Virus record (IMG/VR): IMGVR_UViG_3300020468_000098
Span: 1 to 20,184 of that record
DNA length: 20,184 nt
Direction: 5' to 3' (one strand)
Source of the DNA: a virus
The translations under genes and the position numbers were made by a program. Positions 2,877 to 20,184 of this stretch are shown here, piece after piece (position 1 is the first letter of the stretch; the number at the start of each line of letters is the position of its first letter). The notes beneath the pieces are model-generated. The model saw nothing but the letters and a program-made list of their open reading frames with translations, searched no databases and had not been told where the DNA came from.

Positions 2877-3025
2877 ACTGTTGGCACTGCGGAACTCAAT
2901 TGATATGGGGTGCCGATCACGATATGGAAGATATAAATGATGGAGAGGAGTCTGAATATGACTTCTTTTCTAATTTTACCTGTCCTAAATGTAAATCATA
3001 CGTAGAAGTTTTTCATCATAGATAA
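2873..3025 (+). CDS. Zinc-ribbon small protein (50 aa, GTG start)
   Basis: A 50-residue protein with two Cys pairs, C3-W-H-C6 and C37-P-K-C40, separated by an acidic loop rich in Asp and Glu. This C-x2-C...C-x2-C arrangement is that of a zinc ribbon, used for nucleic-acid or protein contacts. Similar 'MNCWHCG...CPKC' proteins are familiar from marine T4-like phages, role unknown. The start is a GTG at 2873 forming a GTGA overlap with the basic protein. No nearby ATG would preserve the first Cys pair. The TAA overlaps the next ATG (TAATG at 3023-3027), so translation is probably coupled on both sides. Confidence 0.8.
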   Translation: MNCWHCGTQLIWGADHDMEDINDGEESEYDFFSNFTCPKCKSYVEVFHHR

Positions 3026-3735
3026 TGTCTTGTTTAATTGCGAACCTACCTTCTTATGAGGTATGGGTAAGAAAAGAATACTTAACCGACCATCAGAGTG
3101 GTCATGGCGAATTTATAAAAGGAGTATGGGTATCTGCGAAAAGTATACCTGGTCGGGCATTTTACTTTGAGACCTACTTACCAGAGTATGCTGCAATGTT
3201 TGATAAACTGCCGATTTCAGCGTTTTGCTCGGATCCAGAGACACCAACACCTGATATGACACTTCATAATCTTCAGTTTTGGAACTGTATGGACTATGGA
3301 GTCGTTGCAGTACAGAAACAATTCATCGGAAGTATGCATTATGAGGTCATGACAAGAGATTATGGCAACCAAACAGGTACTTATATCTGCACTTTAGACA
3401 ATTATCATGACAGTGTAGATGCTATTGACTACTCAACAAGTGAACAACCTGCCGAACATAAGTCACATAATCTGCTAGAACTCGATAATGGGCAGTTTTG
3501 TCTCTATCCGAACAATAGAATGAGGATTTATGACAACAGTATCACTCCAGAAACACCAAAAGTGCCTGATTTTAAGGTTTCAACAGTATACTATCAGGTA
3601 GAGAATGGTCATGATCGTGACGGATTGGGTTCAGAAGAGAATTATTTCTGGAAAACAGCAAAAGAAAGGGCAGTAGGTACAGAAAATACAGCAATTGAGA
3701 AGAAAAGAGCTCCTTTTGAACCAGAATTAGGATAA
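3025..3735 (+). CDS. Conserved phage protein next to gene 25, function unknown
   Basis: A 236-residue soluble protein with many aromatic residues. The N-terminal half reads as beta-rich (PSYEVWVRKEYLTDHQSGHG, then FYFETYLPEYAAMFDKLPIS). A later stretch, 'HNLLELDNGQFCLYPNNRMR', is followed by 'VPDFKVSTVYYQVENG'. I recall proteins with this start and the same 'ELDNGQFCL.PNNR' block just upstream of gene 25 in cyanophages, where they are annotated only as conserved hypothetical. Its start overlaps the zinc-ribbon gene by 1 nt. Its stop lies within the first of two late-promoter-like sequences before gene 25. It therefore closes the coupled chain of accessory genes and borders the structural block. 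No enzymatic motif is visible. Confidence 0.8.
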   Translation: MSCLIANLPSYEVWVRKEYLTDHQSGHGEFIKGVWVSAKSIPGRAFYFETYLPEYAAMFDKLPISAFCSDPETPTPDMTLHNLQFWNCMDYGVVAVQKQFIGSMHYEVMTRDYGNQTGTYICTLDNYHDSVDAIDYSTSEQPAEHKSHNLLELDNGQFCLYPNNRMRIYDNSITPETPKVPDFKVSTVYYQVENGHDRDGLGSEENYFWKTAKERAVGTENTAIEKKRAPFEPELG

Positions 3736-3788: not shown

Positions 3789-4190
3789 ATGGCAATAAAA
3801 CGCATATCTAGATCATTTAAAGATATTAACCTATCATTTAAACCACATCCTGTAACAAATGACCTTACAGTTATCAAAAATGCGAATGCAATTAAGAAAT
3901 CTGTAAGAAATTTAGTGGAAACTATCCCTAGAGAGAGATTTTTTAATCCAAATCTCGGTACTGACATCAGATCAAGTCTTTTTGATTTCTGTGACTTCGG
4001 TACTGCGTCTGTTATTCAGAGACAAATCAGTACTACCATCGAAAATTTCGAACCTCGAATCGATAATTTGGATGTTGAAGTGATTCCTCGACCAGATGAC
4101 AATGAATTTGAAGTAAATATCTTCTTTGAAATTATTGGCCAACAGTTTCCCTCGCAAGCATTCCAGTTCATATTAGAAGCTACAAGATAA
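3789..4190 (+). CDS. 25: Baseplate wedge subunit gp25
   Basis: A 133-residue protein of the gp25/GPW (lysozyme-like fold) baseplate family; T4 gp25 is similar in size. Recognisable blocks are 'IPRERFFNPNLGTDIRSSLFD' at about 46-66 and the family's E-P-R motif at E88-P89-R90 in 'ENFEPRID'. A final beta region follows. In contractile tails gp25 sits at the inner baseplate, joins the wedges to the hub, and contributes the first sheath-like contact that starts sheath polymerisation. The gene leads the structural block behind late-promoter-like sequences. Only 1 nt separates it from gene 6, whose product contacts gp25 in the wedge core. An AGGAAA lies 11 nt before the ATG. Confidence 0.95.
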   Translation: MAIKRISRSFKDINLSFKPHPVTNDLTVIKNANAIKKSVRNLVETIPRERFFNPNLGTDIRSSLFDFCDFGTASVIQRQISTTIENFEPRIDNLDVEVIPRPDDNEFEVNIFFEIIGQQFPSQAFQFILEATR

Positions 4191-4191
4191 T

Positions 4192-6141
4192 ATGCCATTT
4201 ACTAAATTTACAAACTTAGATTTTGATCAGATAAAGACCTCAATAAAGGATTATCTTCGCACGAACTCAGATTTTACTGATTTTGACTTTGAAGGATCTA
4301 ATTTTTCAGTTTTAATTGATACTTTAGCATATAATACTTACATCACCGCGTTTAACTCAAACATGATTGTGAATGAGTCCTTCCTAGACTCTGCAACAGT
4401 TCGAGAAAACGTTGTTTCCCTTGCTAGAAATATTGGATATGTTCCCAGATCTCGAAGTGCAGCACAAGCAACCATATCTTTTAATATTACTTCAAATGAT
4501 ACATCAGAAATATCTACAGCAACTTTAAAGGCAGGTTTAGTTTGTATTGGTAGTAGTAATGATATAACATATACTTTCTCAATTCCAGATGATATAACAA
4601 CTACTGTTACACCTTTATTTGATACTCAAACTATTCTTCCAGATGGAACTATAGGTTCTAGTCGAAATGGATATACAGCGTTTTTTGATTCAATTACAGT
4701 TTTTCAAGGAACACTCATTAAAAAAAGTTTTGCAGTTGATGGATCACTCGATCAAAGGTTCATTTTAGATAATCCTTTCATAGATACATCTACAATTGTG
4801 GTCTATGTAAGAGGTACGAACAGTAACGGTAAAGGAACTCTATACACAAAAGTTGATAATATTTTAAATATAGATTCTACATCATCAACATTCCTAATTC
4901 AGGAAATTCAGGATGAAAAATACGAACTTTTATTTGGAGATGGTATTTTTGGAAGAAAACTTGATAATGAATCTATAATAGATGTTAGTTATCTTGTAAC
5001 TGATGGAAAAGAGGGAAACGGACCTGCAGCATTTTCATATGCAGGAAATATTGAAAACGATTTAAAATCAACATCATCATTAGTAAGCACACCCACTATA
5101 TCTGTGGTCTCTCCTGCCTCTAATGGCGGTAATATAGAGTCAATTGACTCAATTAAGTATTTTGCCCCTCGACTCTATTCATCACAGTACAGGGCGGTTA
5201 CAGCAAGGGATTACGAAGCAATAATTCAACAAATTTATCCTAATACTGAGAGTGTTTCTGTTGTTGGTGGAGAAGAAATTGATCCACCACAATTTGGAAC
5301 AGTTTTTATTACTATAAAACCTAAAAACGGTGACTTTGTATCGGATTTTGATAAAACTCAAATATTATCCGATTTAAAAAATTATACATTGACTGGAATC
5401 ACTCAGAAAATAATTGATTTAAAAGTTCTTCATATAGAACTAGAATCATTTATATATTACAATACATCAAAGGTTAAAAATATTAATGAATTGAAAACAA
5501 ATGTAATTAATGGTCTTACAACCTACTCTAAATCCACAGACGTGAATAAATTTGGTGGTAGATTTAAGTATAGTAAAGTTTTAAGTGTGATTGATAATAT
5601 TGAAGATTCAATAACATCAAATATTACGAGAGTTCGAATTAGAAGAAATTTAAATGCTCTTTTAAATCAATTTGCACAATACGAAATCTGTTTTGGTAAT
5701 CAATTTAACGTTAAACCTGAAGGATTAAATATTAAGAGTACTGGATTTAAAATTTCTGGAGTGTCGGAAACAGTATTTTTAACAGATATTCCAAATACTG
5801 ACAAACAAACAGGATTAATATCAATTGTAAAGAAAGATATTATTGATGGTAAAAAAATTATTATTGTTGATAATGCAGGAACTGTTGATTATATAAAAGG
5901 AGAGATAAATTTAACTACGATTAATATTACATCAACCGATAAACCAAATAATATTATTGAAATTCAAGCTTTCCCAGAATCAAATGATGTCATAGGTCTT
6001 GAAGATCTATACTTGAAATTTAACATTCAAAGTAGCTCAATAAATATGGTTAAAGACACCATTTCATCTGGAGATCAAATATCTGGTGTTGGATATAAAG
6101 TTACATCAAGTTATACAAACGGAGATTTAATACGAGGATAG
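4192..6141 (+). CDS. 6: Baseplate wedge subunit gp6 (baseplate J family)
   Basis: A 649-residue protein, close to the roughly 660 residues of T4 gp6. The N-terminal block 'FDFEGSNFSVLIDTLAYN' (31-48) is followed by 'FLDSATVRENVVSLARNIGYVPRS', typical of gp6. The baseplate-J core includes 'LFGDGIFGRKLD' at 247-258 and 'YRAVTARDYEAIIQQIYP' at 333-350, both standard marks of this family. gp6 forms the dimeric wedge core and the inner ring that holds the wedges together; it contacts gp25, gp7 and gp53. The gene starts 1 nt after gene 25 and ends 1 nt before the giant gene, so the three are almost certainly co-transcribed. Local GC content falls through this gene towards the very low level of the giant gene. 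Confidence 0.95.
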   Translation: MPFTKFTNLDFDQIKTSIKDYLRTNSDFTDFDFEGSNFSVLIDTLAYNTYITAFNSNMIVNESFLDSATVRENVVSLARNIGYVPRSRSAAQATISFNITSNDTSEISTATLKAGLVCIGSSNDITYTFSIPDDITTTVTPLFDTQTILPDGTIGSSRNGYTAFFDSITVFQGTLIKKSFAVDGSLDQRFILDNPFIDTSTIVVYVRGTNSNGKGTLYTKVDNILNIDSTSSTFLIQEIQDEKYELLFGDGIFGRKLDNESIIDVSYLVTDGKEGNGPAAFSYAGNIENDLKSTSSLVSTPTISVVSPASNGGNIESIDSIKYFAPRLYSSQYRAVTARDYEAIIQQIYPNTESVSVVGGEEIDPPQFGTVFITIKPKNGDFVSDFDKTQILSDLKNYTLTGITQKIIDLKVLHIELESFIYYNTSKVKNINELKTNVINGLTTYSKSTDVNKFGGRFKYSKVLSVIDNIEDSITSNITRVRIRRNLNALLNQFAQYEICFGNQFNVKPEGLNIKSTGFKISGVSETVFLTDIPNTDKQTGLISIVKKDIIDGKKIIIVDNAGTVDYIKGEINLTTINITSTDKPNNIIEIQAFPESNDVIGLEDLYLKFNIQSSSINMVKDTISSGDQISGVGYKVTSSYTNGDLIRG

Positions 6142-6142
6142 T

Positions 6143-9100
6143 ATGATAAGTACTGGTATTGATACAAGAATTAAAGTTCAACAAATAATTGAAAATCAAC
6201 TTCCTGAGTTTATTTTATCAGAAAGTCCAAAAGCAGTTGATTTTTTAAAGCAATATTATATCTCGCAAGAGTATACTGGAGGTCCGATTGACCTTACAGA
6301 TAATTTAGATCAATATTTAAAATTAGATAATTTAACTCCAGAGGTTATTAGAGGAGGAACAACCTTAACTGGAATAAGCACTGTTGTTGTTAATGATGAA
6401 GTCACATTTACAATTTCAGTCGAAAGTACAAAAGGATTTCCAAAACAATATGGATTGTTAAAAATTGATAGTGAAATCATCACATACACTGGTATCACTA
6501 CAAATACCTTTACAGATTGTAAACGTGGATTTAGTGGAATTACAACTTATAGGAATATTAACAATCCATCTGAATTAGTATTTTCAACATCAACATCACA
6601 AGATCACTCAAGTGGTGCAAAAGTAGAGAATTTAAGTTCTTTATTTTTGCAAGAGTTTTATAAAAAAATAAAAAATACTTTTACACCTGGTTTAGAAAAT
6701 ACAGATTTTGTTTCAAATTTAGATGTAAATAATTTTATAAAAGAATCTAGAACATTTTACGAATCGAAAGGAACAGAAGAATCTTTCCGAATTTTATTTA
6801 ATGCATTATATGATGTAGATCCAAAAGTAATTGATTTAGAAAAATATTTAATAAAACCATCTTCTGCAAAATATGTAAGAAGAAAAAGAATTGTAGCAGA
6901 AAAATTAACAGGGGATCCTTTAAATTTAAAAGGTCAAACCATTGTTAGGTCAACAGATTCAACTTCTACTGCATCTGTATCTGAAGTTGAAGTTCTAACA
7001 GGTATTTCTGGAATATCTACAATGAAAGATTATTTTATTTTAGATCTTTTTATAGGATTTGATGAAGAAGAATTTATAACTGGAAAATTTGATGTGACAG
7101 GAAAAACAAAAGTTGTCACTGATGTTTCAAGTGGTGCTTCAGTCATAACTGTAGATTCAACTGTTGGTTTTGGAACCACTGGAACAATCATTTCAGGTAT
7201 AAACACAAATATTGTTTACACCGATAAGACTGTTAATCAGTTTTTAGGATGCACACATATTTCAGAGTCAATTAATTTAGGTGATGATGTTATTGCTGAT
7301 GATAATATTTTTGGATATGAAAGTGGAGATTTAACAAAAAAAGTAGAGTTGAGAATAACAGGAGTATTGAGCGATTTCATTCCTTCTACAGATAATAGAT
7401 TGTCAATAGAAAATGAAACAATTAGTGTTAAAAGTATTGGAGAAATAATTAACAATCCAAATACGAATAAATCTCAAAAAGAAATATTTGCAAATTCTTG
7501 GATCTATAATACTTCTTCTAATTATGATATTATTGATTCTATTGATGGGAAACAAAGTGATATACAACTAAAATCTAAGATAGACAAATCTAGTTTGAGA
7601 AAAGGAGATTCCATTCAAATTTTAGAAAAGAAAAGTAGTCCTTTTTCTTTAGGAACTGTTATTAAAGAATCAAAGATCATAAACATAGTTGAGACACAAA
7701 ATAAAATAACTATAGATCCTGCTGTTACTTTTAGTTCTTCAAAACAATATTCAGTTAGAAGAATTATAGAAAAGACATTTAGTACTGCAAATTTATTAAA
7801 ATATGGTAATTATACAATTACTCCTGATATTCAAAATGTATATAATGAATCTGATCAAAATTTATATGTAGCAAGTAATTCTCTCCCATCATCTGGAATT
7901 ATAAAAACACCATCTTTAGTTAGTATTGCAAGTGTAGTAGAAAATAACACTATTCAAGATTACAATACTTTAACACAAAAATACTCAACAATTTCATTTA
8001 GTGTATTTGATGTTCCATTTATAACAGGAGATCAAGTGTATTATGAACCCGAAGGAAATCCTTTGGTAGGATTGACATCTGGGTTTTATTATGTTAAAAC
8101 AATTGGATTTAATAAAATTAAATTATTTAAAGCACCAGCTTTTATTGAAACTAATGATTTTATTGAATTTGGTGTTCCAAAAGATACTAGCACATCTCAT
8201 ACTTTCACACTTGGTTATCAATATAATAAGTTAATAGCACCTCAAAAATTACTTAAAAAATTTCCTGTAAATGTTACTCAAAATTTAGGAAAAAATGTAG
8301 AAACAATTCCAGGACCTGTTGGAATGTTAATTGATGGTGTTGAAATTGAAAATGGAAAATCGTCAGATGGTATTTTTTATGGTGCAATTGAAAACTTTTC
8401 AGTAATTGGATTTGGAACAAATTATGATGTTATAAATCCACCATTAATTGAAGTTGAATCAGAATCATCTTCAACACAAGCATTAGTCAGTCCTATTATA
8501 AGTGGAGACATAACAGAAATACAAGTAGATCCTCAAAATTTTGATATCGAAGATATATTATCAATTCAATTAACTGGAGGTAATAGTGGAGAAGCAGTTC
8601 TTCAACCAGTTATTCGTAGGAGAAATAGAGTTTTAGAATTTAGTGGAGTTAGTACTGCTTTTGGTGGTGGTGTTGATACATTTTCAGAAACAATAACATT
8701 TTTAAAACCTCATAATATTGTGAGTGGTCAGATTTTAGTTTATGATAAAAATAAAAATACAGAGTTGGGTATAGGAACATTTAAAGGTAGTAATTTAAGT
8801 GATTTTGAAAGTTTAATAGATGGTCAACAATATTGGCCAGAGGTTGTTGGATTATCTACTATTATACTTTATAGAAATGAAACTGACTATTCATCTGGTA
8901 TTAATACTATTGGATTTACCGAAATAGCAAAGAGTGGAACACATAAATTTAGATTAAAAAATTCAAAAAATAATTTATCTAGTATTAGAGTTATAAAATC
9001 AGGAAAACCATACTCAAATAGAAAAGTATTTGTAAATCCAACTACTGGAATATCAACATACAAATCAATAGTTACATTTAATAATCATGGATTTTCTGAT

Positions 9101-12100
9101 GGTGAATTGATAAGTTATCAACCAGTTGTAGGTTTAGGATCAACTTCTCCTCAAAGTATTTCTGGGTTGTCTACTGTAAATCAATATAAAATAATTAAAA
9201 TTAACGATAATAGTTTTAAGGTATCCAACGCTGGTATTGGTGGTACAGATAATAGTGATTTTATCAGAAAAAATCACGTTGATTTTAAAACAACAGGAAC
9301 TGGATATCAATTATTTAAATATCCAGATGTTGAAATATCAATTAATGCAATATATTCAGTTCCAACATCTGATAAGTTAAATTTAACTCCAGTCATACAA
9401 GGAAGTATCATAGATGCTTCGATATATGAAAAGGGAAGTGGTTATGGAACAACTGATATTATTAACTATGAAAATATTCCAAATATTTTAGTTAAAAATG
9501 GAATTTCTAGACCAGGAAAAAATATTACACCTTCATTAAATCCTTTAATTTCAAATGGAGAAATAATTAGTGTTAATATTCAAGATGGTGGTGATGAATA
9601 TTATTCAACTCCAGATTTAGTTGTAATTGGAGATGGAATTGGTGCAAAATTAAGGGCAATAATCGATAGAGATAAGAATTCGTCAACATATTTAAAAATA
9701 ATTGATATAATTATTTTAAATGCTGGAACTAACTATTCTTTTAATGAAACAAGAATTAATATAATTCCTAAAGGATCAAACGCAGTATTTAAAACATCAA
9801 TTGAAAAATTAAGTATAAACAATATTCAAAAAAATTCATCACGTCCATACAGAGAAAGATACACTAATCTTGCTTTACTACCAACAAATAATGAATTAAA
9901 GTTCACAACAGTTGGTTACTCTACTTTAACAGGTGAATCTAGATATGGTCAAAAATCAAATAGTCATTCTCCAATTATTGGATGGGCATATGATGGAAAT
10001 CCAATTTATGGTCCTTATGCATATAGTGATCCTCTTGACAATTCATCTACAATAAAAATATTAAAAACAGGATACTCTTTAAACACGAATATACCTAACA
10101 GAGGTGATTTACCTTTCGATCTTGGATTTTTTGTTGAAGATTATTCATATTTACCAACAAATTCTACAGATTTGGATGAACATAATGGTAGATATTGTCA
10201 AACTCCAGAATATCCAAATGGAGTTTATGCTTACTTTGCTGGTATTAGCACCGCATCTGGAGATCCAGAGTTTCCCTATTTTATTGGAAAAACTTATAGA
10301 TCAATCCCATCCGTTCTAGATCCTCTTTCATTAATAACTCAGTCATTTGACTTTAACAATTCAAATTTAGTTAGAAATACTTTTCCATATAAACTATCTG
10401 AACCATTTGGAAATAATGATTTTATTATTGAATCAAATAAAATATTATCACAAATAACAAAAGTTGCATCAGTAAGTCAAGGTAAAGTTGATTCATTATC
10501 AATACTAGAAACAGGTGAAAATTATAAAGTAAATGATAATGTAGTATTTGATAATACAGGTACAAATGGTAATGGAGTTAGTGCTTTTGTAAGTGAATTG
10601 GAAGGTAAACCAATATCCAATATTATAACAAGTTATGAAAAAATAGAAAATATTACATTTATAAGAAAAGATCCAAATACTGTTTCAGTGTTTGTTCCTA
10701 ACACTCATGAATTCAAAGTTGGAGAAAATTTAGAACTATCTGGTATATCAACAGATATCAAATCAACATCAGGAATTTCTTTAATAGGTAATCATAATAT
10801 ATCTGCAATTTCAACTGAAAGCACTCTTTTATATAAAGAACTACCTTTAAATTCTGTTGCAGGAATTATAACTGATATATTTGTGTATAAAACAAATGTG
10901 ATTTCAATTGGCAGTAGTATTGGAATTGGAACTGAGAAATTATTAGTATTAAACAAATTTGATGATAGAAATATTTTAAGAGTTCAAAGAGGAGTAACAG
11001 GAACAGCACATACACTTTCCACTGAAGTTGAGTTAATTCCTAGTTTCTTTGATATAAATTTTAAATCCAATTTCTTTAATTCTAAGATAGATGATGTAGT
11101 ATACTTTAACCCTAAACAATCTGTTGGTATCGCTACAACAGTGGGTATTACATCATCAATAACTGTGTCTGTTGGAAATACTTCAAGTTCAGTTTCCGTT
11201 CCAGCACAAAGCATTTATTTACCAAATCATCCATTTAAAACAGGTCAACAAATAACATTTAAAACTGATGGAAACAGTGTTCTTGAAGTATCTAGAGATG
11301 GGGCAGTCAATCAGGCATTTACCATACCATTTTCTGGAACAAGTCAAACTTTATTTGCAATAAATAAATCTCCAAATTACATAGGAATAGTAACTCAAGT
11401 TGGATTAGTTACTTCAACCAATGGATTATTTTTTAGAACTAATGGTGATGATTACTTTAAGTATAGGTTTGAATCCAATTTTAATAAAGTTACTGGAAAT
11501 ATAGAAAGAATAAATTCAAAAGTATCTTTAACTACATCACATAATTTATCGGTAAATGACATTGTTAGTCTCAATATCACTTCTAATCAATCTGTTGGTA
11601 TTGGAACATCTACTAATGTTAGAGTAAAATATAATCATTTAATTGATAGTTTACTTATAAATCAGGTAGGATTTACATCAGCAGCAATCAATACAACTAA
11701 CAATCAAATAACTTTAAATTCTCATAAATTTAAAACTGGGGATAAAGTTTATTATGATTCAACAGACACCATCGCTAGTGGACTTAATACTGGTGGATAT
11801 TTTATATACAGGTTAGATGATAATAATATAAAATTAGCAGAAACATTTTACGATTCAAAACAAATTCCACCCAATATTGTAAGTATTGTATCAATTGGAG
11901 GTTCTGAACATCAGTTGTCATTGATCAATCCACCAATAAATGTTATTAGAGATAATAATTTAGTATTTGATGTATCAGATTCTTCATTATCTGATTTTAA
12001 TTTTAAAATATATTTAGATGAAGATTTTAATAATAATTTTGTTTCTACAGGAAAAACTACAGTAAATGTTGTATCTACTTCTGGAACTATTGGAGTTACT

Positions 12101-15100
12101 TCAACAGCTACATTAACTCTTAATTATTCACTCAATAATCCATTAAATTTATTTTATAATGTTGAGAAATCTGGATTTATTAGCACTTCAGATATAAACG
12201 TTGTAAATGGATCTAAAATTTCATATGTAAATAGCGATTATAATAAAAATTATTCAATTGTAAGTGTAGGAACTACTGATTTTGACATAAAATTGAATAG
12301 AAAACCAGAAACTTTATCATATCAAAATTCAAATACAAATATTTTAAAGTATAATACTACAACAAAAACAGATAATGGTGCAATTAGCAAAATTAATATA
12401 ATATCTAAGGGATCTGGGTATAAAACATTACCAAGATTTGTTAGTATTGCTTCTACAGAAGGGGTTAATGCTAAATTATTACCATCTTCATCAACCAGTA
12501 ACAAAATTGAAAATACTGAAATATTAAATATTGGTTTTGAATATGCATCAGATAAAACTTTAAAACCAATAGCAAAATTATCACCTGTAATTAGTATAAA
12601 AAATTCAAATAAAATAACATCAATAATTGTTAAAAAAAGAGGTGCAAATTATACAAATCCTCCAGAATTAGTTTTACAAGATAATAAAACTAAAGAAATT
12701 ATTAAAAGTGGTTCTTTAATCGCAAATGTTAGTCAAGCAACACAATCTATTAATAGTGTTGACGTAATCAGTACTCCACATGGAATTGGAAATTGTCAAT
12801 TGTTTACTACAAATAACTCAAACGGAATACCAATTACAAATATATCAATAGCATCTACGATTGTTACTGATAGTGTAAGTGGAATAGTTACTGTAACTTT
12901 AGCAACACCAGTTTTAGGATTTTCTACTGCTCCTTTCCAAGCAGGAGATTCATTTTTTGTAGAAAATATAGAAAATGAGTATGGAGATACTTTTAATTCA
13001 CCATCCAATAAATTTACTTTCTACCCAGTAGAAAGAATAATAGGTGGTATAAATCCAAATCCATTTAAGTTAGAAATTAATCTTAATGGATTAATATCTA
13101 ATCCAGGATTAGCAAAAACAATTCAAACTTTTGCATCAGCAATTAATTTTAAAGATTATCCTCAATTTACAGTAGTTACTGAAATAGCAAATTTTGCATT
13201 AGGCGAAGAACTTTTTGTATCAAGAGATAATTCAAGTTTTGAGGATGTTGGACTTAGTTTAGACAAAATAAGCAACAGTTATATTAAAATTTTAGGTGAT
13301 TTTAAATTAAAACCTAATGATAAAATAAAAGGATATTTTTCAGGTTCTATTGCAACTATTAATACGACATTTGCTAATATAGGAGAATTTAAAGTTGATT
13401 TTGCTTCAGATAAAGTTATTGGATGGTCTGATGATATTGGTAAATTAAATGAAGATTATCAGGTAATGCCAGATAATGACTACTATCAAACACTATCATA
13501 TACAATCCAAAGTCCCATTGAATATCAAACATTAATAAGTCCTGTAAATAGTTTATTACACACCACAGGTTTAAAAAACTTTGCTGATTTGGGTATTTCA
13601 ACATCTGTTGGTGTTGGTTCTACGAGCAGTGTTGACACATCTTCTATTATTAGAGATCTGACATCTAATAATAGAGTTGATGCGATTGACAATTTTGATT
13701 TAGCAAGAGATGTTGATATTTTATCAAATCCACTTAGATCTAACTCTGTTAGTTTTGATACTATAAAACTTTCAAATTACTTTGAGTGCTCAACAAATAG
13801 AGTATTGCAAATAGATAATATAAACACTCTATTTAAAAGTTCAACAAATAATGCAAAAAGAGATGGATTTATAAGACTTACTAATTCATTTAATAGATTT
13901 TTAGTTCAAACAAGAGTTCCTTCAGTTTCAGTTGGAATTGGAACTACAACAAATACTGTACAATTAACTGAATTGATTACATCTGTAGATTTTGTTAATC
14001 AAAATATATTCACTATTCAAAAAGGATCAATAAATGATCAAGCAAAATTAGTTGATATTGTTGGTAATCAGGATAATGACAATAACTTTATTTTACAATT
14101 TAATCCTGTTGATGTTTTTAATTCTGATCTAGATATCAAAATTTTACAACAATCATTTATATCTGGGATTGGTGCTGGTCAGACCTCTATAGGATTTATT
14201 ACTTTACGTGGTGTAAATGAAAATGTTTCAGCATCAACAACGTCCACAATAATATCATCTAATATTTCTAATATAGATTCCTATTTTGCAACTATTGAAG
14301 TAAATGATTCAATATCAAATGAAAATAACATTGTTGAAATTTATGCCACTCACGATGGCACAAATTCTTACATATCAAATTATTCTTTAGAAACAAATAC
14401 AACTAATTCTATAGGTACATTTACAACAAACATAGACTCTAATATTTTATCTTTAAATTTTGAAAATGATAGATCAAATCAAGTTTTAGTCAGATCAAAA
14501 ATTGTTGGGTTTGGAACTACAGCAATTGGAATTGGAACTTTTAGATTTAAGAATAATACACAACCAAATGGATCTGAGGATTCTGCTAGATTTGAATCTA
14601 ATTATGTAAGTATTGCTTCTACAGCAGTCATAGCAGGATTTACAACAGCAAAAGATACTTCAATTAAGAGCGTAGTAAGGGTATCAATCGGAAATACCAG
14701 TGCTCTACATCAAATTCTTATGAGTCATGATGGTGAAAATACATTCATCACACAATATCCATTCATGACAATAGGAGACGAATTAGGAATAGGAACATTC
14801 TCCTCAGAATATAGTGGTTCTAATATAAATTTAAAATTTCATCCAGATCCTGAATTTATAGGTGTAGGAAATTTATTGGTTCAATCGTTTAATGAAATTA
14901 TTAACACTAAATTAGATACAATTAATTCTACACCAACTTTAACTTATGGTAAATCTTTTGAAGAATTATCTCTTTTACAATACGATGCTTTAAATTCTAG
15001 TAGATCAGACGGATTGTCATTCAAATTACAAAATAATAATAATTCTATATTTGCTAATTTCTTTGATCCATCAACATCAGTTAATTTATCTACAGGAGAA

Positions 15101-18100
15101 TTTACAATTGAAAATAATTTCTTCAATAAAAATGAGAGATTAATTTACACACCAGGATCCACAGTAAGTAGTGTTGGTATTTCATCACTAATAATGTCTA
15201 ATGGAAATCCTTTGCCAAGTGAGGTTTATGTTGTTCTTCCTTCAGAAACAGTTAATTCAAAAGTATTTCAATTATCAACAACTAAAGCAGGAGCAGCTAT
15301 AACATTTAATACTGCTGGTTCGGGAAATAGACATGTATTAGAAATGTTTAAGAAAAATGAAAAAACATTAATAACTATTGATGATATTATTCAATCTCCA
15401 TTATCATTTACTCCTATAACTACGACATTATCTGGAAATGTGGGAGGACAAGTGTCAATATCAACCTCAATTTTATCTTTAACAGGAATTTCTTCTATTA
15501 TTATTAGCGATGTTTTAAAAATTGATGATGAATTTGTAAAAGTAAATAATGTTGGTTTTGGAACTACAAATGTTGGTCCTATTTCAAATACAGGTTCTTT
15601 AGAATTAATTGATGTATCAAGGGCAATTGTTGGTTCTTCATTATCAACTCATACTGACACTAGTCCAGTAAGATTATTTAAAGGTGGATATACTATAGTT
15701 GGCGAAGATATATTTTTCACAGATGCACCTAGAGGAACAAATATTTCAGAAAGGGATGATTCAAATAGAGATCGTGGTAGATCTAATTTTAGTGGAAGAG
15801 TTTATTTGAGACAAGATTATTCTTCAAATGCAATATTTGATGATGTTTCAACTAAATTTACTGGTATAGGACAAACCTTTACTACAACAATATTAGGGGT
15901 GAATACTACGGGGATTTCAACAGGAAGTGCTTTCGTAACTATTAATGGAATATTTCAACCACCAACCACAGAAAAAAATCCATCTAATAATTATCAGTTT
16001 ACAGAATCAGCAGGAATAACAAGTTTTGTATTCAGTGGTATTAGTTCATTTAATGGCAATCAAATTATTAGTGATTTTGATGTAAACCAAAATGAATTAC
16101 CAAGATCTGGACAAATTGTATCAATCGGGTTTACTGCTGGATTAGGATACGCTCCTTTGGCTGGTGCTGCTGTTACTGCAATTATTGGTACTGGTGGTTC
16201 AATTACTGCGGTTGGTGTAGGAACTAGAGATTTTCATGGATCTGGGTATAGTTCTGGACTAAGCACTACAGGAAATGGTATTATTAGTATTGGTATTATT
16301 GATGAAGTATATCAACATAGATTCTTTAGTTCTTCTAGCAATTCTGTAACAGCAAATACAGGATCAAAATTTACACCAACAGACGCTTTGTATGACTCCT
16401 TATCAGGTGTTTTAGTATTAACTATTCCAAGTCATGGATTAACTGTTTCAAATACCATAGGTATAGCAACAGAGTCATTAGTCTTTAGATGTGATAAAGA
16501 TGCATATTCTACAGATCATCCATATCCAAGAACAACAGATCCAGCACATAATGCTACTTTGTCAATATCAACTACAACCACAAATACATTATCTGTAAAT
16601 GTTGGATCTGGTGGTGGAGTTGGATCTGGTGCCACGATAACTGCAACGGTTGGTATTGGTGGAACTTTAATATTTTCTGTTGTTGGTGGTGGAACAAGTT
16701 ATATAAATCCAAAAATAATGCCACCTATGCCAAGATATGAAAATTTACCAATAACTGGAGTTTCTAGAATAGGTGTTGGTGCTACTACAGATACGGGAAC
16801 TGGATTACTTTTAAATATTGACGTTGGCGGTAGTAATACTACTGGTATTGGATCTACTCTTTTTGAGGTTAAATCTTTTGATATAGCAAGATCTGGATTT
16901 GGATTTAGAGAGGGTGATGTATTTAAACCAGTGGGATTAGTTACAGATAAAAAACTCTCCTCACCATTAAATGAAGTAGAATTTACTGTTAATAAAGTGT
17001 TCACAGATTCTTTCTGTTCTTGGAATGTAGGAGAGTTTGATTATATTGACACAATTAAACCATTACAAGATGGAATTAGAAAAAGATTCCCAATTAATTT
17101 TAAAGGAGAATTAGCATCTTTCCAACGTGCTAAATCTGCAAATATTGATATGCAATCATTATTATTAATAATAATAAATGGAGTTATACAAAATCCTGGA
17201 GAATCTTATATATTCGATGGTGGAACATCTTTTGAATTTACAGAAGCACCTGATGTAAATGATAATGTATCAGTATTTTTCTATAAAGGAACAGATGATG
17301 TAGACGTTACATTTACGGATGTAACTGAATCTGTGAAGGTTGGTGATGAGTTTCAATTACTTAAAAATAATAATCATGCTGGTTTTGATCAGAATGTAAG
17401 AGTTATATCTGGTATCACAACAGCAGATCAAATTGCAACTCCATTATACTTTAATCAAGGTATAGATAATAATTTAAAATCTTTTAGATGGATTAAACAA
17501 AAAACAGATAAATTTATCAATGGAGAATTGATAACTAAAGTAAGACCTTCAATTGAACCTCTAGTATTTCCAGAAGCTAGAATAATTAAAGATTTTTCAA
17601 CCAGTGACAACACTCTTTATATTGATAATGTTGGAATTGGTACAAATTATTTGACTAATTTATTCTTCTATGAAAGTCCAAATAATATTGGAACAATTGT
17701 ATTTGACGAATCTGTAGAACCTAGAGCAGCAGATTTAACTGCGGTTGTTTCTGTTGGTGGAACAATTCAATCCATTACTATTAATGATGGTGGAAAGGGA
17801 TATGTAGGTTCTAGCACTGCATTATCAATTGCTTCTCCAATATCAAATACTGGAGTTGCTTTAACAGCATCTGATTTGATAGAGGTTGCTAAAAGAACGT
17901 CGAGTGTACTTGCCACAGCAAATGCAAATATTGCAGGTGGTGTTATAACTTCAGTATCAATTGTGAATCCTGGTTCTGGATATACAACAACTGCAGTTCC
18001 AAATGTAATTGCACCAACTCCTGTTGTTCCGTCTGAACTCATATCTGGATTTACAGCAGCTAGTGGATTTACTGGTATAGTTACTTCAATAAGTGTTTTA

Positions 18101-18544
18101 AGTAGTTCGACTATTAAATTCTTCTTAGAAAAAGAATCTGGAACATTTAGTGGATTATCAAATGGAGATCCAATTTACATATTCGATACAGCAGTTGGTT
18201 CAGGTGTTACTTCAGTAGTAACTTCCTCAGGTGCTCCTGTGGGAATTGGTACTTCATTCTTTGATAATGTGTATTTAATCAGTTCTTACAGCACAACATC
18301 TAATACTGCGGAATTTGTAGCTGGAGTGAAGACAGATACATCTTTAGTTGGTATTTCAACTGTGGGCACATCTGGCAAGTTCTCTTGGGGTAAATTAACT
18401 GGTGGTGTTAGATCAACAAATCCAATTTCAGTGACTGTTTCAGGTAAAACAGTCAACTCAGGTTTAACAACTTTCCCAAGAATACAAAGGAGAAATTCTG
18501 GTATTAGAAACACTGGTGCTTTAAAAGATAACTCTCGTGCTTAA
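6143..18544 (+). CDS. Giant gp7-position baseplate/virion protein (4133 aa) with YHYH-like domain
   Basis: One uninterrupted frame of 4133 codons fills the slot between genes 6 and 8 that T4 gives to gene 7 (1032 aa). The start is supported by GAGGA at 6134-6138. Residues about 18-280 resemble the C-terminal part of T4 gp7 as I recall it, notably 'ESRTFYESKGTEESFRILF' at 201-219. After this come repeated beta-type modules: an 'RG-GT-H' module, 'H-F-TGD-VYY' modules, about ten G-x-G-Y modules, a YHYH-like domain at about 1273-1369, a YYQxLSY block at 2427-2482, tandem HDG units at about 2716-2920, and 'NG-Q-PG' modules. No transmembrane segments or enzyme motif are obvious. It most likely replaces gp7 in the wedge and projects outward. 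Calling it simply gene 7 would overstate the evidence. Confidence 0.85.
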   Translation: MISTGIDTRIKVQQIIENQLPEFILSESPKAVDFLKQYYISQEYTGGPIDLTDNLDQYLKLDNLTPEVIRGGTTLTGISTVVVNDEVTFTISVESTKGFPKQYGLLKIDSEIITYTGITTNTFTDCKRGFSGITTYRNINNPSELVFSTSTSQDHSSGAKVENLSSLFLQEFYKKIKNTFTPGLENTDFVSNLDVNNFIKESRTFYESKGTEESFRILFNALYDVDPKVIDLEKYLIKPSSAKYVRRKRIVAEKLTGDPLNLKGQTIVRSTDSTSTASVSEVEVLTGISGISTMKDYFILDLFIGFDEEEFITGKFDVTGKTKVVTDVSSGASVITVDSTVGFGTTGTIISGINTNIVYTDKTVNQFLGCTHISESINLGDDVIADDNIFGYESGDLTKKVELRITGVLSDFIPSTDNRLSIENETISVKSIGEIINNPNTNKSQKEIFANSWIYNTSSNYDIIDSIDGKQSDIQLKSKIDKSSLRKGDSIQILEKKSSPFSLGTVIKESKIINIVETQNKITIDPAVTFSSSKQYSVRRIIEKTFSTANLLKYGNYTITPDIQNVYNESDQNLYVASNSLPSSGIIKTPSLVSIASVVENNTIQDYNTLTQKYSTISFSVFDVPFITGDQVYYEPEGNPLVGLTSGFYYVKTIGFNKIKLFKAPAFIETNDFIEFGVPKDTSTSHTFTLGYQYNKLIAPQKLLKKFPVNVTQNLGKNVETIPGPVGMLIDGVEIENGKSSDGIFYGAIENFSVIGFGTNYDVINPPLIEVESESSSTQALVSPIISGDITEIQVDPQNFDIEDILSIQLTGGNSGEAVLQPVIRRRNRVLEFSGVSTAFGGGVDTFSETITFLKPHNIVSGQILVYDKNKNTELGIGTFKGSNLSDFESLIDGQQYWPEVVGLSTIILYRNETDYSSGINTIGFTEIAKSGTHKFRLKNSKNNLSSIRVIKSGKPYSNRKVFVNPTTGISTYKSIVTFNNHGFSDGELISYQPVVGLGSTSPQSISGLSTVNQYKIIKINDNSFKVSNAGIGGTDNSDFIRKNHVDFKTTGTGYQLFKYPDVEISINAIYSVPTSDKLNLTPVIQGSIIDASIYEKGSGYGTTDIINYENIPNILVKNGISRPGKNITPSLNPLISNGEIISVNIQDGGDEYYSTPDLVVIGDGIGAKLRAIIDRDKNSSTYLKIIDIIILNAGTNYSFNETRINIIPKGSNAVFKTSIEKLSINNIQKNSSRPYRERYTNLALLPTNNELKFTTVGYSTLTGESRYGQKSNSHSPIIGWAYDGNPIYGPYAYSDPLDNSSTIKILKTGYSLNTNIPNRGDLPFDLGFFVEDYSYLPTNSTDLDEHNGRYCQTPEYPNGVYAYFAGISTASGDPEFPYFIGKTYRSIPSVLDPLSLITQSFDFNNSNLVRNTFPYKLSEPFGNNDFIIESNKILSQITKVASVSQGKVDSLSILETGENYKVNDNVVFDNTGTNGNGVSAFVSELEGKPISNIITSYEKIENITFIRKDPNTVSVFVPNTHEFKVGENLELSGISTDIKSTSGISLIGNHNISAISTESTLLYKELPLNSVAGIITDIFVYKTNVISIGSSIGIGTEKLLVLNKFDDRNILRVQRGVTGTAHTLSTEVELIPSFFDINFKSNFFNSKIDDVVYFNPKQSVGIATTVGITSSITVSVGNTSSSVSVPAQSIYLPNHPFKTGQQITFKTDGNSVLEVSRDGAVNQAFTIPFSGTSQTLFAINKSPNYIGIVTQVGLVTSTNGLFFRTNGDDYFKYRFESNFNKVTGNIERINSKVSLTTSHNLSVNDIVSLNITSNQSVGIGTSTNVRVKYNHLIDSLLINQVGFTSAAINTTNNQITLNSHKFKTGDKVYYDSTDTIASGLNTGGYFIYRLDDNNIKLAETFYDSKQIPPNIVSIVSIGGSEHQLSLINPPINVIRDNNLVFDVSDSSLSDFNFKIYLDEDFNNNFVSTGKTTVNVVSTSGTIGVTSTATLTLNYSLNNPLNLFYNVEKSGFISTSDINVVNGSKISYVNSDYNKNYSIVSVGTTDFDIKLNRKPETLSYQNSNTNILKYNTTTKTDNGAISKINIISKGSGYKTLPRFVSIASTEGVNAKLLPSSSTSNKIENTEILNIGFEYASDKTLKPIAKLSPVISIKNSNKITSIIVKKRGANYTNPPELVLQDNKTKEIIKSGSLIANVSQATQSINSVDVISTPHGIGNCQLFTTNNSNGIPITNISIASTIVTDSVSGIVTVTLATPVLGFSTAPFQAGDSFFVENIENEYGDTFNSPSNKFTFYPVERIIGGINPNPFKLEINLNGLISNPGLAKTIQTFASAINFKDYPQFTVVTEIANFALGEELFVSRDNSSFEDVGLSLDKISNSYIKILGDFKLKPNDKIKGYFSGSIATINTTFANIGEFKVDFASDKVIGWSDDIGKLNEDYQVMPDNDYYQTLSYTIQSPIEYQTLISPVNSLLHTTGLKNFADLGISTSVGVGSTSSVDTSSIIRDLTSNNRVDAIDNFDLARDVDILSNPLRSNSVSFDTIKLSNYFECSTNRVLQIDNINTLFKSSTNNAKRDGFIRLTNSFNRFLVQTRVPSVSVGIGTTTNTVQLTELITSVDFVNQNIFTIQKGSINDQAKLVDIVGNQDNDNNFILQFNPVDVFNSDLDIKILQQSFISGIGAGQTSIGFITLRGVNENVSASTTSTIISSNISNIDSYFATIEVNDSISNENNIVEIYATHDGTNSYISNYSLETNTTNSIGTFTTNIDSNILSLNFENDRSNQVLVRSKIVGFGTTAIGIGTFRFKNNTQPNGSEDSARFESNYVSIASTAVIAGFTTAKDTSIKSVVRVSIGNTSALHQILMSHDGENTFITQYPFMTIGDELGIGTFSSEYSGSNINLKFHPDPEFIGVGNLLVQSFNEIINTKLDTINSTPTLTYGKSFEELSLLQYDALNSSRSDGLSFKLQNNNNSIFANFFDPSTSVNLSTGEFTIENNFFNKNERLIYTPGSTVSSVGISSLIMSNGNPLPSEVYVVLPSETVNSKVFQLSTTKAGAAITFNTAGSGNRHVLEMFKKNEKTLITIDDIIQSPLSFTPITTTLSGNVGGQVSISTSILSLTGISSIIISDVLKIDDEFVKVNNVGFGTTNVGPISNTGSLELIDVSRAIVGSSLSTHTDTSPVRLFKGGYTIVGEDIFFTDAPRGTNISERDDSNRDRGRSNFSGRVYLRQDYSSNAIFDDVSTKFTGIGQTFTTTILGVNTTGISTGSAFVTINGIFQPPTTEKNPSNNYQFTESAGITSFVFSGISSFNGNQIISDFDVNQNELPRSGQIVSIGFTAGLGYAPLAGAAVTAIIGTGGSITAVGVGTRDFHGSGYSSGLSTTGNGIISIGIIDEVYQHRFFSSSSNSVTANTGSKFTPTDALYDSLSGVLVLTIPSHGLTVSNTIGIATESLVFRCDKDAYSTDHPYPRTTDPAHNATLSISTTTTNTLSVNVGSGGGVGSGATITATVGIGGTLIFSVVGGGTSYINPKIMPPMPRYENLPITGVSRIGVGATTDTGTGLLLNIDVGGSNTTGIGSTLFEVKSFDIARSGFGFREGDVFKPVGLVTDKKLSSPLNEVEFTVNKVFTDSFCSWNVGEFDYIDTIKPLQDGIRKRFPINFKGELASFQRAKSANIDMQSLLLIIINGVIQNPGESYIFDGGTSFEFTEAPDVNDNVSVFFYKGTDDVDVTFTDVTESVKVGDEFQLLKNNNHAGFDQNVRVISGITTADQIATPLYFNQGIDNNLKSFRWIKQKTDKFINGELITKVRPSIEPLVFPEARIIKDFSTSDNTLYIDNVGIGTNYLTNLFFYESPNNIGTIVFDESVEPRAADLTAVVSVGGTIQSITINDGGKGYVGSSTALSIASPISNTGVALTASDLIEVAKRTSSVLATANANIAGGVITSVSIVNPGSGYTTTAVPNVIAPTPVVPSELISGFTAASGFTGIVTSISVLSSSTIKFFLEKESGTFSGLSNGDPIYIFDTAVGSGVTSVVTSSGAPVGIGTSFFDNVYLISSYSTTSNTAEFVAGVKTDTSLVGISTVGTSGKFSWGKLTGGVRSTNPISVTVSGKTVNSGLTTFPRIQRRNSGIRNTGALKDNSRA
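6194..6985 (+). other. gp7-like core module at the N-terminus of the giant protein
   Basis: Residues about 18-281 contain blocks that line up by eye with T4 gp7 residues near 700-900. 'QLPEFILSESPKAVDFLKQY' (19-38) compares with a gp7 stretch reading PDSYLLQDSNFEAFCEAY. 'ESRTFYESKGTEESFRILF' (201-219) compares with ESRSYDFYSTKGIEASYKFLF. 'LKGQTIVRSTDS' (about 261-272) compares with LVGQTIYTATGR. The order is the same. One 'RG' module lies between the first two blocks. The T4 sequence is quoted from memory, so this rests on recall rather than on an alignment. Confidence 0.65.
7990..11860 (+). repeat. Dispersed 'H-x-F-x-TGD-x-V-x-Y' modules in the giant protein
   Basis: Diverged copies of about 50 residues start near 7990 (VPFITGDQVYYEPEGNPLVG), 8695 (PHNIVSGQILVYD), 9070 (NHGFSDGELISYQPVVG), 10690 (THEFKVGENLEL), 11225 (NHPFKTGQQITF), 11530 (SHNLSVNDIVSL) and 11710 (SHKFKTGDKVYYDSTD). 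The fullest copies run on through 'GL-x(n)-Y-x-(I/V)' to a '(N/D)-x-(I/F)-K-(L/V)' strand. This suggests one ancestral beta domain duplicated many times. Confidence 0.6.
9840..10300 (+). other. YHYH-like domain inside the giant protein
   Basis: Residues 1275-1292 read 'HSPIIGWAYDGNPIYGPY', the hallmark first half of the YHYH domain family. The second half follows at 1344-1365: 'LDEHNGRY', then 'TPEYPNGVYAYF'. In the family this is where the Y-H-Y-H signature sits; here it is Y1362-A-Y-F1365, so both histidines are lost. The domain occurs in many marine T4-like virion proteins, and its function is not established. Confidence 0.8.
13421..13590 (+). other. YYQ-LSY conserved block in the giant protein
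   Basis: Residues 2427-2482 include 'GKLNEDYQVMPDNDYYQTLS', then 'SYTIQSPIEYQTLISPVNSL' and 'LHTTGLKNFADLGIS'. I recall the pattern YYQ-x-(L/F)-SY-x-(I/L)-x-S...(V)...LH-x-x-G as recurrent in large marine phage tail and baseplate proteins. It is probably a discrete beta domain. It sits just before the HDG tandem units. Confidence 0.5.
13960..14900 (+). repeat. Tandem HDG repeat units in the giant protein
   Basis: Two clear diverged protein repeats have HDG motifs at 2737-2739 and 2862-2864, 125 residues apart. The shared pattern is I(V/L)x(I/M)x(A/S)HDGxNxxIxxYx(10)IGTF, then x(I/L)xLxFxxDP-like and LVxS. The units span about 14290-14520 and 14674-14900. A third, weaker copy without HDG is seen at about 13960-14160, in 'NNFILQFNPVDVFNSDLDIK'. 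DNA identity is low, so the duplication is old. Confidence 0.65.
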
Positions 18545-18597: not shown

Positions 18598-20184
18598 ATG
18601 TCGGCAATTGTAACAGATCAGTTTAGAATTAATAACGCAGGTAATTTTTTAGGCGATGTCAATAATTCCTCAAATTCATATTATGTTTTTGTTGGATTAT
18701 CAAATCCATCTGCTGCAGTTAGATCTTCCAATGCTTTTGGTAGAAATACAACTGATGCAACATGGAATGATCAAACAACTAGGAAAAGTCCTGTTGATAA
18801 TTTTAATTATTTACATCATGTTAAAGACACGATGGTTTTTGGAAAAAAAATTACCTCAAATAATATTCGAAGAGTAGTTAGAAAAATAAATTGGACGAAA
18901 GATACAACTTATGATATGTATCGTCATGATTATAGTCCTTCTAACAGATCTCCGAATGGTCAAACTTCAAGATTATATGACACTGATTTTTATGTAATTA
19001 ATAAAGATTTTAGTGTTTATATATGCATCGATAATGGATCAACGGGTATTAATACCACAGGAAATCCATCTTTAAATGAACCAACATTAACTGGTTTAGA
19101 ACCATTTAGAGCAACTGGTGCCACAGATGATGGTTATCTCTGGAAGTATTTGTTTACCGTAGCACCAAGTGACATTATAAAGTTTGATGCTACTGAATTC
19201 ATACCTTTACCTAATAATTGGGAAACATCAACTGATGCTAATATTGCTAATGTTAGGGATAATGGAAATGCGGAAATCAGCAATAATCAAATTAAAAAAA
19301 TATTTGTTCAAGATGGAGGAACTTCTTATAGTAATCCAGGTGCTGGAGGTTTAGAAGTTGATATTATTGGTGATGGAGAAGGTGCAAAAGCAATTATTGA
19401 TGTTGGAACCGATGCAAAAATTAATGATGTAAAAGTATCTGTGGGTGGAAAGGGTTATAGTTACGGTATTGTTGATTTAACAGATCTTCAACCCACAAAT
19501 CCTAATTCCAAATTAATTCCAATAATTCCTCCATCAAAAGGTCATGGTTTTGATATTTACAAAGAATTAGGTGCCGATAGAGTTTTAGTTTATGCTAGAT
19601 TTGATGATTCAACTAAAGATTTTCCAATTGATACTAAATTTGCTCAAATTGGAATAGTTAAAAATCCAACATCAATTGGATCAACACAAATTTTTAATCA
19701 AACTCAATATTCCTCAGTATCCTCTTTATATTTAAATTCTTTTGATAGTCCTTCTCCTGTTAAGGTAGGAGATTTGATTACACAAGATGTTAAAAATACT
19801 AGTGGTGTTAAGATTGGTCTGGTAAGGGGTTATGTGGTATCTTTTGACGTTGTGTCGAGTGATATTAGTAATAAAATAGCAGTATTAAAATACTATCAAG
19901 ATAGATCATTGTATTTTAATTCAAGCACTGGAGATCAACAAGATACCACTGGTATCAGCACTATTGGGGGAATTAATGGTCAGATTTATAAATTTAGTGG
20001 TAGTGAAATTATTAAAGGAACTGATGGGTCATCTAATTATCAAGTTGGTATAAAAACTACCTTTAGTGGTATTTCAACAAATCCTACAGGAACTAAAGTC
20101 GTTGATTTAGGAGTTGAATTTAAAGATGGCGTAGCACAATCCGAGATAAATAATCAGTCGGGTGATATTATCTACCTAGATAAT
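18598..20184 (+). CDS. 8: Baseplate wedge subunit gp8 (C-terminus cut by window edge)
   Basis: The frame starts at the ATG at 18598 and is still open at the last base, giving 529 residues. Recognisable gp8 blocks are the start 'SAIVTDQFRINNAGNFLGDV', 'DGYLWKYLFTV' at 178-188 (T4: DGYVWEYLFEI), and 'SGDIIYLDN' at 521-529 (T4: SGEMIYMEN). By comparison with T4, where the end of gp8 lies ~20-25 residues past this block, the full protein would be near 550 residues, against 334 in T4. The extra length sits between the last two blocks and includes two G-x-G-Y modules, near 232-268 and 275-290, like those in the giant protein. gp8 is a dimeric wedge component that binds gp7 and gp6 and links to gp10. 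A late promoter lies just upstream; the ribosome-binding sequence is weak. Confidence 0.9.
   Translation, partial: MSAIVTDQFRINNAGNFLGDVNNSSNSYYVFVGLSNPSAAVRSSNAFGRNTTDATWNDQTTRKSPVDNFNYLHHVKDTMVFGKKITSNNIRRVVRKINWTKDTTYDMYRHDYSPSNRSPNGQTSRLYDTDFYVINKDFSVYICIDNGSTGINTTGNPSLNEPTLTGLEPFRATGATDDGYLWKYLFTVAPSDIIKFDATEFIPLPNNWETSTDANIANVRDNGNAEISNNQIKKIFVQDGGTSYSNPGAGGLEVDIIGDGEGAKAIIDVGTDAKINDVKVSVGGKGYSYGIVDLTDLQPTNPNSKLIPIIPPSKGHGFDIYKELGADRVLVYARFDDSTKDFPIDTKFAQIGIVKNPTSIGSTQIFNQTQYSSVSSLYLNSFDSPSPVKVGDLITQDVKNTSGVKIGLVRGYVVSFDVVSSDISNKIAVLKYYQDRSLYFNSSTGDQQDTTGISTIGGINGQIYKFSGSEIIKGTDGSSNYQVGIKTTFSGISTNPTGTKVVDLGVEFKDGVAQSEINNQSGDIIYLDN
19288..19485 (+). repeat. Two G-x-G-Y modules inserted in gp8
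   Basis: Residues 232-268 (IKKIFVQDGGTSYSNPG, then VDIIGDGEGAKAIID) and 275-290 (INDVKVSVGGKGYSYG) follow the same pattern as the repeats in the giant protein. The 'IGDGEGAKA' tail closely matches 'IGDGIGAKL' at about 9630-9650 of the giant gene. T4 gp8, as I recall it, has no such segment. Confidence 0.65.

Follow-up and report, generated by a model that had tools for sequence, protein, structure and literature searches.

The window analysed here, the whole of a 20,184-base IMG/VR virus record, carries baseplate genes ordered as in T4 (Table 1) and raises the question of whether two neighbouring baseplate proteins, gp8 and the giant protein encoded in the gp7 position, share a sequence module, and how they came to do so. 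An initial annotation of the sequence described gp8 as much longer than that of T4, placed in its extra segment two G-x-G-Y modules of a type found about ten times in the giant, and proposed either that the module had spread by recombination between neighbouring structural genes or that the modules of the two proteins pack against each other. The end of the window cuts gp8, which is completed by an overlapping contig (L003, 100% identical). Two other open reading frames of the window were also searched. The product of 3025-3735 (236 aa) matched phrog_3704, which bears the name "ferredoxin", as does the S-SKS1 annotation; it is without an evident ferredoxin cysteine pattern and without a Pfam match, and the annotation looks doubtful. 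The frame at 1821-2579 matched phrog_1574, a family of unknown function, and a glycosyltransferase PHROG weakly.

Table 1. Baseplate genes, modules and motifs of the window, with window coordinates, strand and the basis of each assignment.
Feature	Position	Strand	Basis
gp25	3789-4190		
gp6	4192-6141		
Giant in gp7 position, baseplate protein, 4133 aa	6143-18544	+	phrog_2885 baseplate wedge subunit; position as P-SSM2 gp7 (5195 aa)
gp7 core motif, giant residues 199-229, FYESKGTEESFRILFNALYDVDPKV	6737-6829	+	Profile match to T4 gp7
Giant module, residues 749-801	8387-8545	+	Module HMM i-E 0.001
Giant module, residues 1141-1182, closest to gp8 module 1	9563-9688	+	Module HMM 1.9e-8; hhalign 97.3%
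Giant module, residues 1185-1230	9695-9832	+	Module HMM 3.5e-5
Giant module, residues 2081-2133	12383-12541	+	Module HMM 4.2e-11; hhalign 93.1%
Giant module, residues 2157-2210	12611-12772	+	Module HMM 7.4e-7
Giant module, residues 3507-3553	16661-16801	+	Module HMM 6.6e-4
Giant module, residues 3874-3920	17762-17902	+	Module HMM 6e-5; hhalign 86-89%, covering tiles
Giant module, residues 3935-3987	17945-18103	+	Module HMM 1.3e-4
gp8, baseplate wedge subunit, 529 aa within window	18598-20184	+	phrog_438 E 1.9e-130
gp8 module 1, residues 230-272, IKKIFVQDGGTSY...VDIIGDGEGAKAIIDV	19285-19413	+	hhalign 97.3% to giant 1121-1220
gp8 module 2, partial, residues 273-297, KINDVKVSVGGKGYSYGIVDL	19414-19488	+	Same alignments as gp8 module 1
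IPPSKGHG motif, gp8 residues 310-317, after module 2	19525-19548	+	Conservation in 58 gp8s

The gp8 of the window is a genuine member of the T4 gp8 family by both its sequence core and its fold. A family profile of 58 sequences matched T4 gp8 (PDB 1N7Z, Pfam PF09215) with an E-value of 6.9e-12, and the match was limited to profile positions 3-198 and 480-524, roughly the first 198 and the last 45. When the AlphaFold model of gp8 (mean pLDDT 82) was searched with Foldseek, 1N7Z was recovered with a probability of 1.00 and an E-value of 6.6e-8, and T4 gp8 and a Klebsiella-phage gp8 were the only significant PDB folds; the global TM-score on the target was ~0.55 because of the insert. The terminal sequences, the fold and the gene position after gp7 are common to the T4 and window proteins. 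Since the T4 match is confined to the N- and C-terminal parts, the additional residues (549 in the completed protein versus 334 in T4) form an internal insertion, which bears out the length difference that was first noted. T4 gp8 has a short stretch where gp8s of the window type hold two modules and further residues, and the module accounts for only ~70 of the ~215 extra residues.

Within the insertion, the two modules claimed for gp8 were found at residues 230-297 as a two-unit G-x-G-Y module (NQIKKIFVQDGGTSYSNPGAGGLEVDIIGDGEGAKAIIDVGTDAKINDVKVSVGGKGYSYGIVDL). In the gp8 model, module 1 contains predicted strands at 235-239, 252-258 and 264-269. Residues G283, G284 and Y287 of module 2 are invariant among the 58 gp8s, as are P311, P312, G315, H316 and G317 of the IPPSKGHG motif that follows, which distant gp8s mostly keep as [PSA]Px(x)GHG. 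Mean entropy was 1.37 in the module, compared with 1.10 for residues 1-229 and 1.69 for residues 351-490; by this measure the module is almost as conserved as the remainder of gp8.

The giant lies between gp6 and gp8, the position of gp7 in T4. Its profile matched T4 gp7 with an E-value of 0.012 and over the 31-residue core motif only; hhalign aligned this motif to T4 gp7 residues 728-758 with a probability of 77.6%, while controls (T4 gp6, gp8, gp10, gp12 and gp17, and reversed gp7) did not exceed 0.24%. On account of its gene position and this motif, support that is weak but specific, the giant is the probable gp7 counterpart. It belongs with the cyanophage giants of phrog_2885, whose P-SSM2 representative occupies the same gene position and is longer, and its tie to T4 gp7 is the single core motif. 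We rejected an identification of the giant as VrlC, stated to substitute for gp7 in pelagimyophages (PMC7029224): in HTVC008M (L175, 7436-17924), VrlC is located after gp8 and is therefore a different gene from the gp7-position giant. The gp7 position of HTVC008M is taken by a 1016-aa protein, an arrangement that fits the published statement oddly. In S-SKS1 (L086:4929-17317) and in contig L018 the gp7-position giant seems to be split into several open reading frames, and ~7 kb of this region is unannotated in S-SKS1. The window giant also contains a YHYH domain (PF14240, E 4.4e-24) at residues 1270-1367 (window 9950-10243), directly after the modules at 1141-1230.

A family profile of gp8 residues 225-300 aligned with giant residues 1121-1220 over 58 columns with an hhalign probability of 97.3%. 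Tiles of the giant starting at 1121, 1161, 2081 and 2121 gave 97.3, 95.5, 93.1 and 92.3%, respectively; those covering ~2081-2220 and 3801-3940 gave 86-93%, and seven tiles in all exceeded 80%. Among six other gp8 segments used as controls, none exceeded 80% against the giant (maximum 75.9% over 21 columns), and reversed giant tiles reached at most 4.3% against gp8. One such pairing, gp8 140-215 with giant 3061-3160 (about 70-76% over 21 columns), is short and off the module, and was dismissed as likely chance. Independent support, likewise at the level of sequence, comes from PHROG profiles: in hmmscan searches the giant module matched the gp8 family phrog_438 (E 2.7e-6) and the gp8 module matched the giant's family phrog_2885 (E 3.3e-4). 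Profile comparison has thus confirmed that gp8 residues 230-297 are homologous to modules in the giant, and the AlphaFold models of the two proteins show a similar strand order.

Eight giant modules were found at E<=1e-3 together with a few weaker ones, so that "about ten" was a fair count. An HMM built from the giant's modules, the means by which the initial annotation had suggested linking the two proteins, did so in part. On the window's own gp8 the giant-only HMM gave marginal E-values (0.1 and 0.44), and a profile-profile or PHROG comparison was therefore needed; the same HMM was significant on the gp8s of pf16, Cr30, S-SKS1 and HTVC008M. Early module HMMs covered only 14-24 positions, and single-unit matches are weak because the module is short and glycine-rich. 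The near-identical GDGxGAK tail that had been pointed out is present in both proteins of the window (GDGEGAK and GDGIGAK), but the likeness is partly coincidental, as the consensus at this site is GDGTGGK in gp8 and GxGxGAxL in the giant.

The module is not confined to these two proteins. The giant-trained HMM matched gp7, gp8, neck gp14, hub lysozyme, tail fibres and one tail sheath, in line with the expected concentration of matches in tail, baseplate and fibre genes. Random proteins were not matched equally: no shuffled or reversed decoy was recovered at E<=0.05, and a scan of the whole T4 genome gave no matches. In the whole P-SSM2 record the matches were restricted to the virion genes gp7, gp8, gp14, the hub lysozyme PSSM2_019 and the tail fibre PSSM2_293; in that of S-SKS1, gp14, gp8, two tail fibres, the hub lysozyme and the gp7-position open reading frames were matched; and in that of HTVC008M, only the gp7-position protein. 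Matches to gp14 were obtained in both P-SSM2 and syn9, together with a 6076-aa structural protein of syn9. The PHROG families matched were tail, connector and virion-structural families and one of unknown function. Cyanophage gp14 (phrog_460, head closure Hc2) shares the module at a different virion location, the neck; P-SSM2 gp14 is 470 aa long with four units, whereas T4 gp14 has 256 aa and no module match. In the tail sheath of Stenotrophomonas phage Moby (L239:165-2138), two tandem units precede the sheath core domain, and the stretch is present in all 17 of the Stenotrophomonas records retrieved, with a tail-sheath annotation for those listed. A sheath protein on a Nostoc foliaceum contig (L211:2293-4404), which may belong to a prophage or to a cellular injection system, has six near-perfect tandem units before its core domain. 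Bacterial occurrences amounted to 58 loci spread over many phyla, and at some of these loci fn3, PA14 or multicopper-oxidase domains are present as well.

Four module regions searched against Pfam gave no match, Ig-like or other, at E<=1, and a PDB sequence search with the module profile and the P-SSM2 gp14 modules matched no solved structure. The fold of a giant-segment model (mean pLDDT 72) had no match in the PDB; it matched phage structural proteins, among them a baseplate wedge of phiM9 (E 0.042) and a Mendera protein (E 1.9e-3) that we infer to be gp8 and whose 514 aa equal the length of gp8 in its relative Moby. A literature search found no description of the G-x-G-Y module.

Among 12 aligned gp8s, 11 have the module pair at the same place with GDG conserved, most of them followed by [PSA]P..GHG; the exception is T4, where the whole stretch is absent. 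These 11 come from phages of cyanobacteria, pelagibacter, Methylophilales, Pseudomonas, Stenotrophomonas, Caulobacter and Rhizobiales. A profile from the seven non-cyanophage gp8s matched the window giant at 97.9%, and the gp8 module therefore predates the marine group. We favour, as the probable though by no means settled explanation, an ancient and promiscuous family of beta-modules that is vertically inherited in gp8 and likely forms surface-exposed tiles in tail proteins. The shared block is old and widely reused, and was therefore not recently passed between two touching proteins.

It is possible that the modules instead bind glycans or receptors and so determine the specificity of adsorption. 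They occur in bacterial proteins and in fibre and giant proteins, in the latter alongside YHYH, and gp8 was, at the level of the gene, among the early-mutated proteins in an S-PM2d/Synechococcus chemostat (PMC9910659). The gp8 pair, however, is conserved rather than hypervariable and is common to phages of unrelated hosts, and we consider this explanation unlikely. The pattern of conservation suggests an ancient integrated domain in gp8 rather than a hypervariable receptor binder, and would also be compatible with an internal structural role.

That the modules of gp7 and gp8 pack together into one shared layer on the outside of the baseplate would suit the wedge of T4, in which gp8 is a dimer that interacts with gp7, gp10 and gp6 (PMC3004832), and the beta-rich form predicted for both modules. 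In Melnitz-1, Moby and phiM7 (partial), though, gp8 carries modules that have no detectable counterpart in the gp7-position protein. Modules are found besides in gp14, hub, fibre and sheath proteins, and the neck, hub and sheath proteins are not gp7-gp8 neighbours. Because the module occurs without a gp7-position counterpart and in the neck, hub and sheath, packing is doubtful as a general reason for its presence; it is not required, and we give it a low probability.

Recombination between the adjacent giant and gp8 genes, in either direction, was the other proposal made at the outset, and it fared poorly. Across 37 phages that have both genes, the gp8 segment had a median score of 185 against the gp8 segments of other phages and of 67 against the phage's own giant. 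The own giant ranked first in just one of the 37, at a median rank of 14 where chance would give 19. Similarity to the own giant was slightly above that to other giants (permutation P 0.018), an excess that shared ancestry of the phages can explain, and in DNA the gp8 module resembled the giant gene no more than expected by chance. Given the own-giant ranks, the chance-level DNA similarity and the fixed gp8 site, which is kept in distant phages including some without detectable gp7-position modules, recent exchange between gp7 and gp8 is unsupported and spread by this route very improbable. Convergence through a glycine-rich beta-turn bias, without common ancestry, could be argued from units that are short, rich in Gly, Ser, Thr and Val and essentially invariant only in G and Y, but it is scarcely credible against a two-unit alignment of 58-72 columns at 97-98%, negative reversed and shuffled controls, the independent PHROG match and the zero matches in T4.

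Under the favoured explanation of an old and widely reused beta-module, each unit of ~40 residues comprises a strand (IxxVxI), a turn (xxGGxxY), a second strand (xPxVxIxGxGxGA) and a third strand (AxAxVxxG) that connects to the unit after it, and serves singly or in tandem as an insert in many contractile-tail phage proteins and in bacterial proteins. The gp8 pair may represent an ancient, vertically inherited, folded beta-domain on a T4-like gp8 core, either added to that core or lost in the lineage of T4. Separate insertion and duplication may have raised the number of modules in the giant and in other proteins. As predicted surface-exposed tiles, they could thicken and stabilise tail proteins and may provide weak adhesive or packing surfaces, by functional analogy with the Ig-like domains on other phages. 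Like the module, Ig-like domains recur among virion proteins of many kinds and extend to bacterial proteins; the module differs in its length of ~40 aa, its tandem arrangement and its lack of a match to Ig or any other Pfam family. Insertions of Ig-like domains, which are promiscuous beta-domains, into the structural proteins of phages have been described (Fraser et al. 2006, as cited in PMC8718954).

A broader reading, on which we are evenly divided, is that these modules belong to an unnamed, deep-rooted family of beta-tiles that was independently inserted in sheath, gp7, gp8, hub, neck and fibre proteins and in the sheath protein of the Nostoc genome, also occurs in proteins of bacteria from many phyla, and serves contractile injection machines generally as an accessory domain for which Pfam has no model. 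A promiscuous module, as yet unnamed, that recurs across the proteins of contractile tails is of more interest than the original link between gp8 and the giant. It names one recurring part in very large cyanophage virion proteins, which are mostly annotated as hypothetical; many such proteins would gain an annotation from a curated module model. The module partly explains why the gp7, gp8 and gp14 of marine T4-like phages exceed those of T4 in size, and it offers a testable idea on how contractile tails acquire surface domains.
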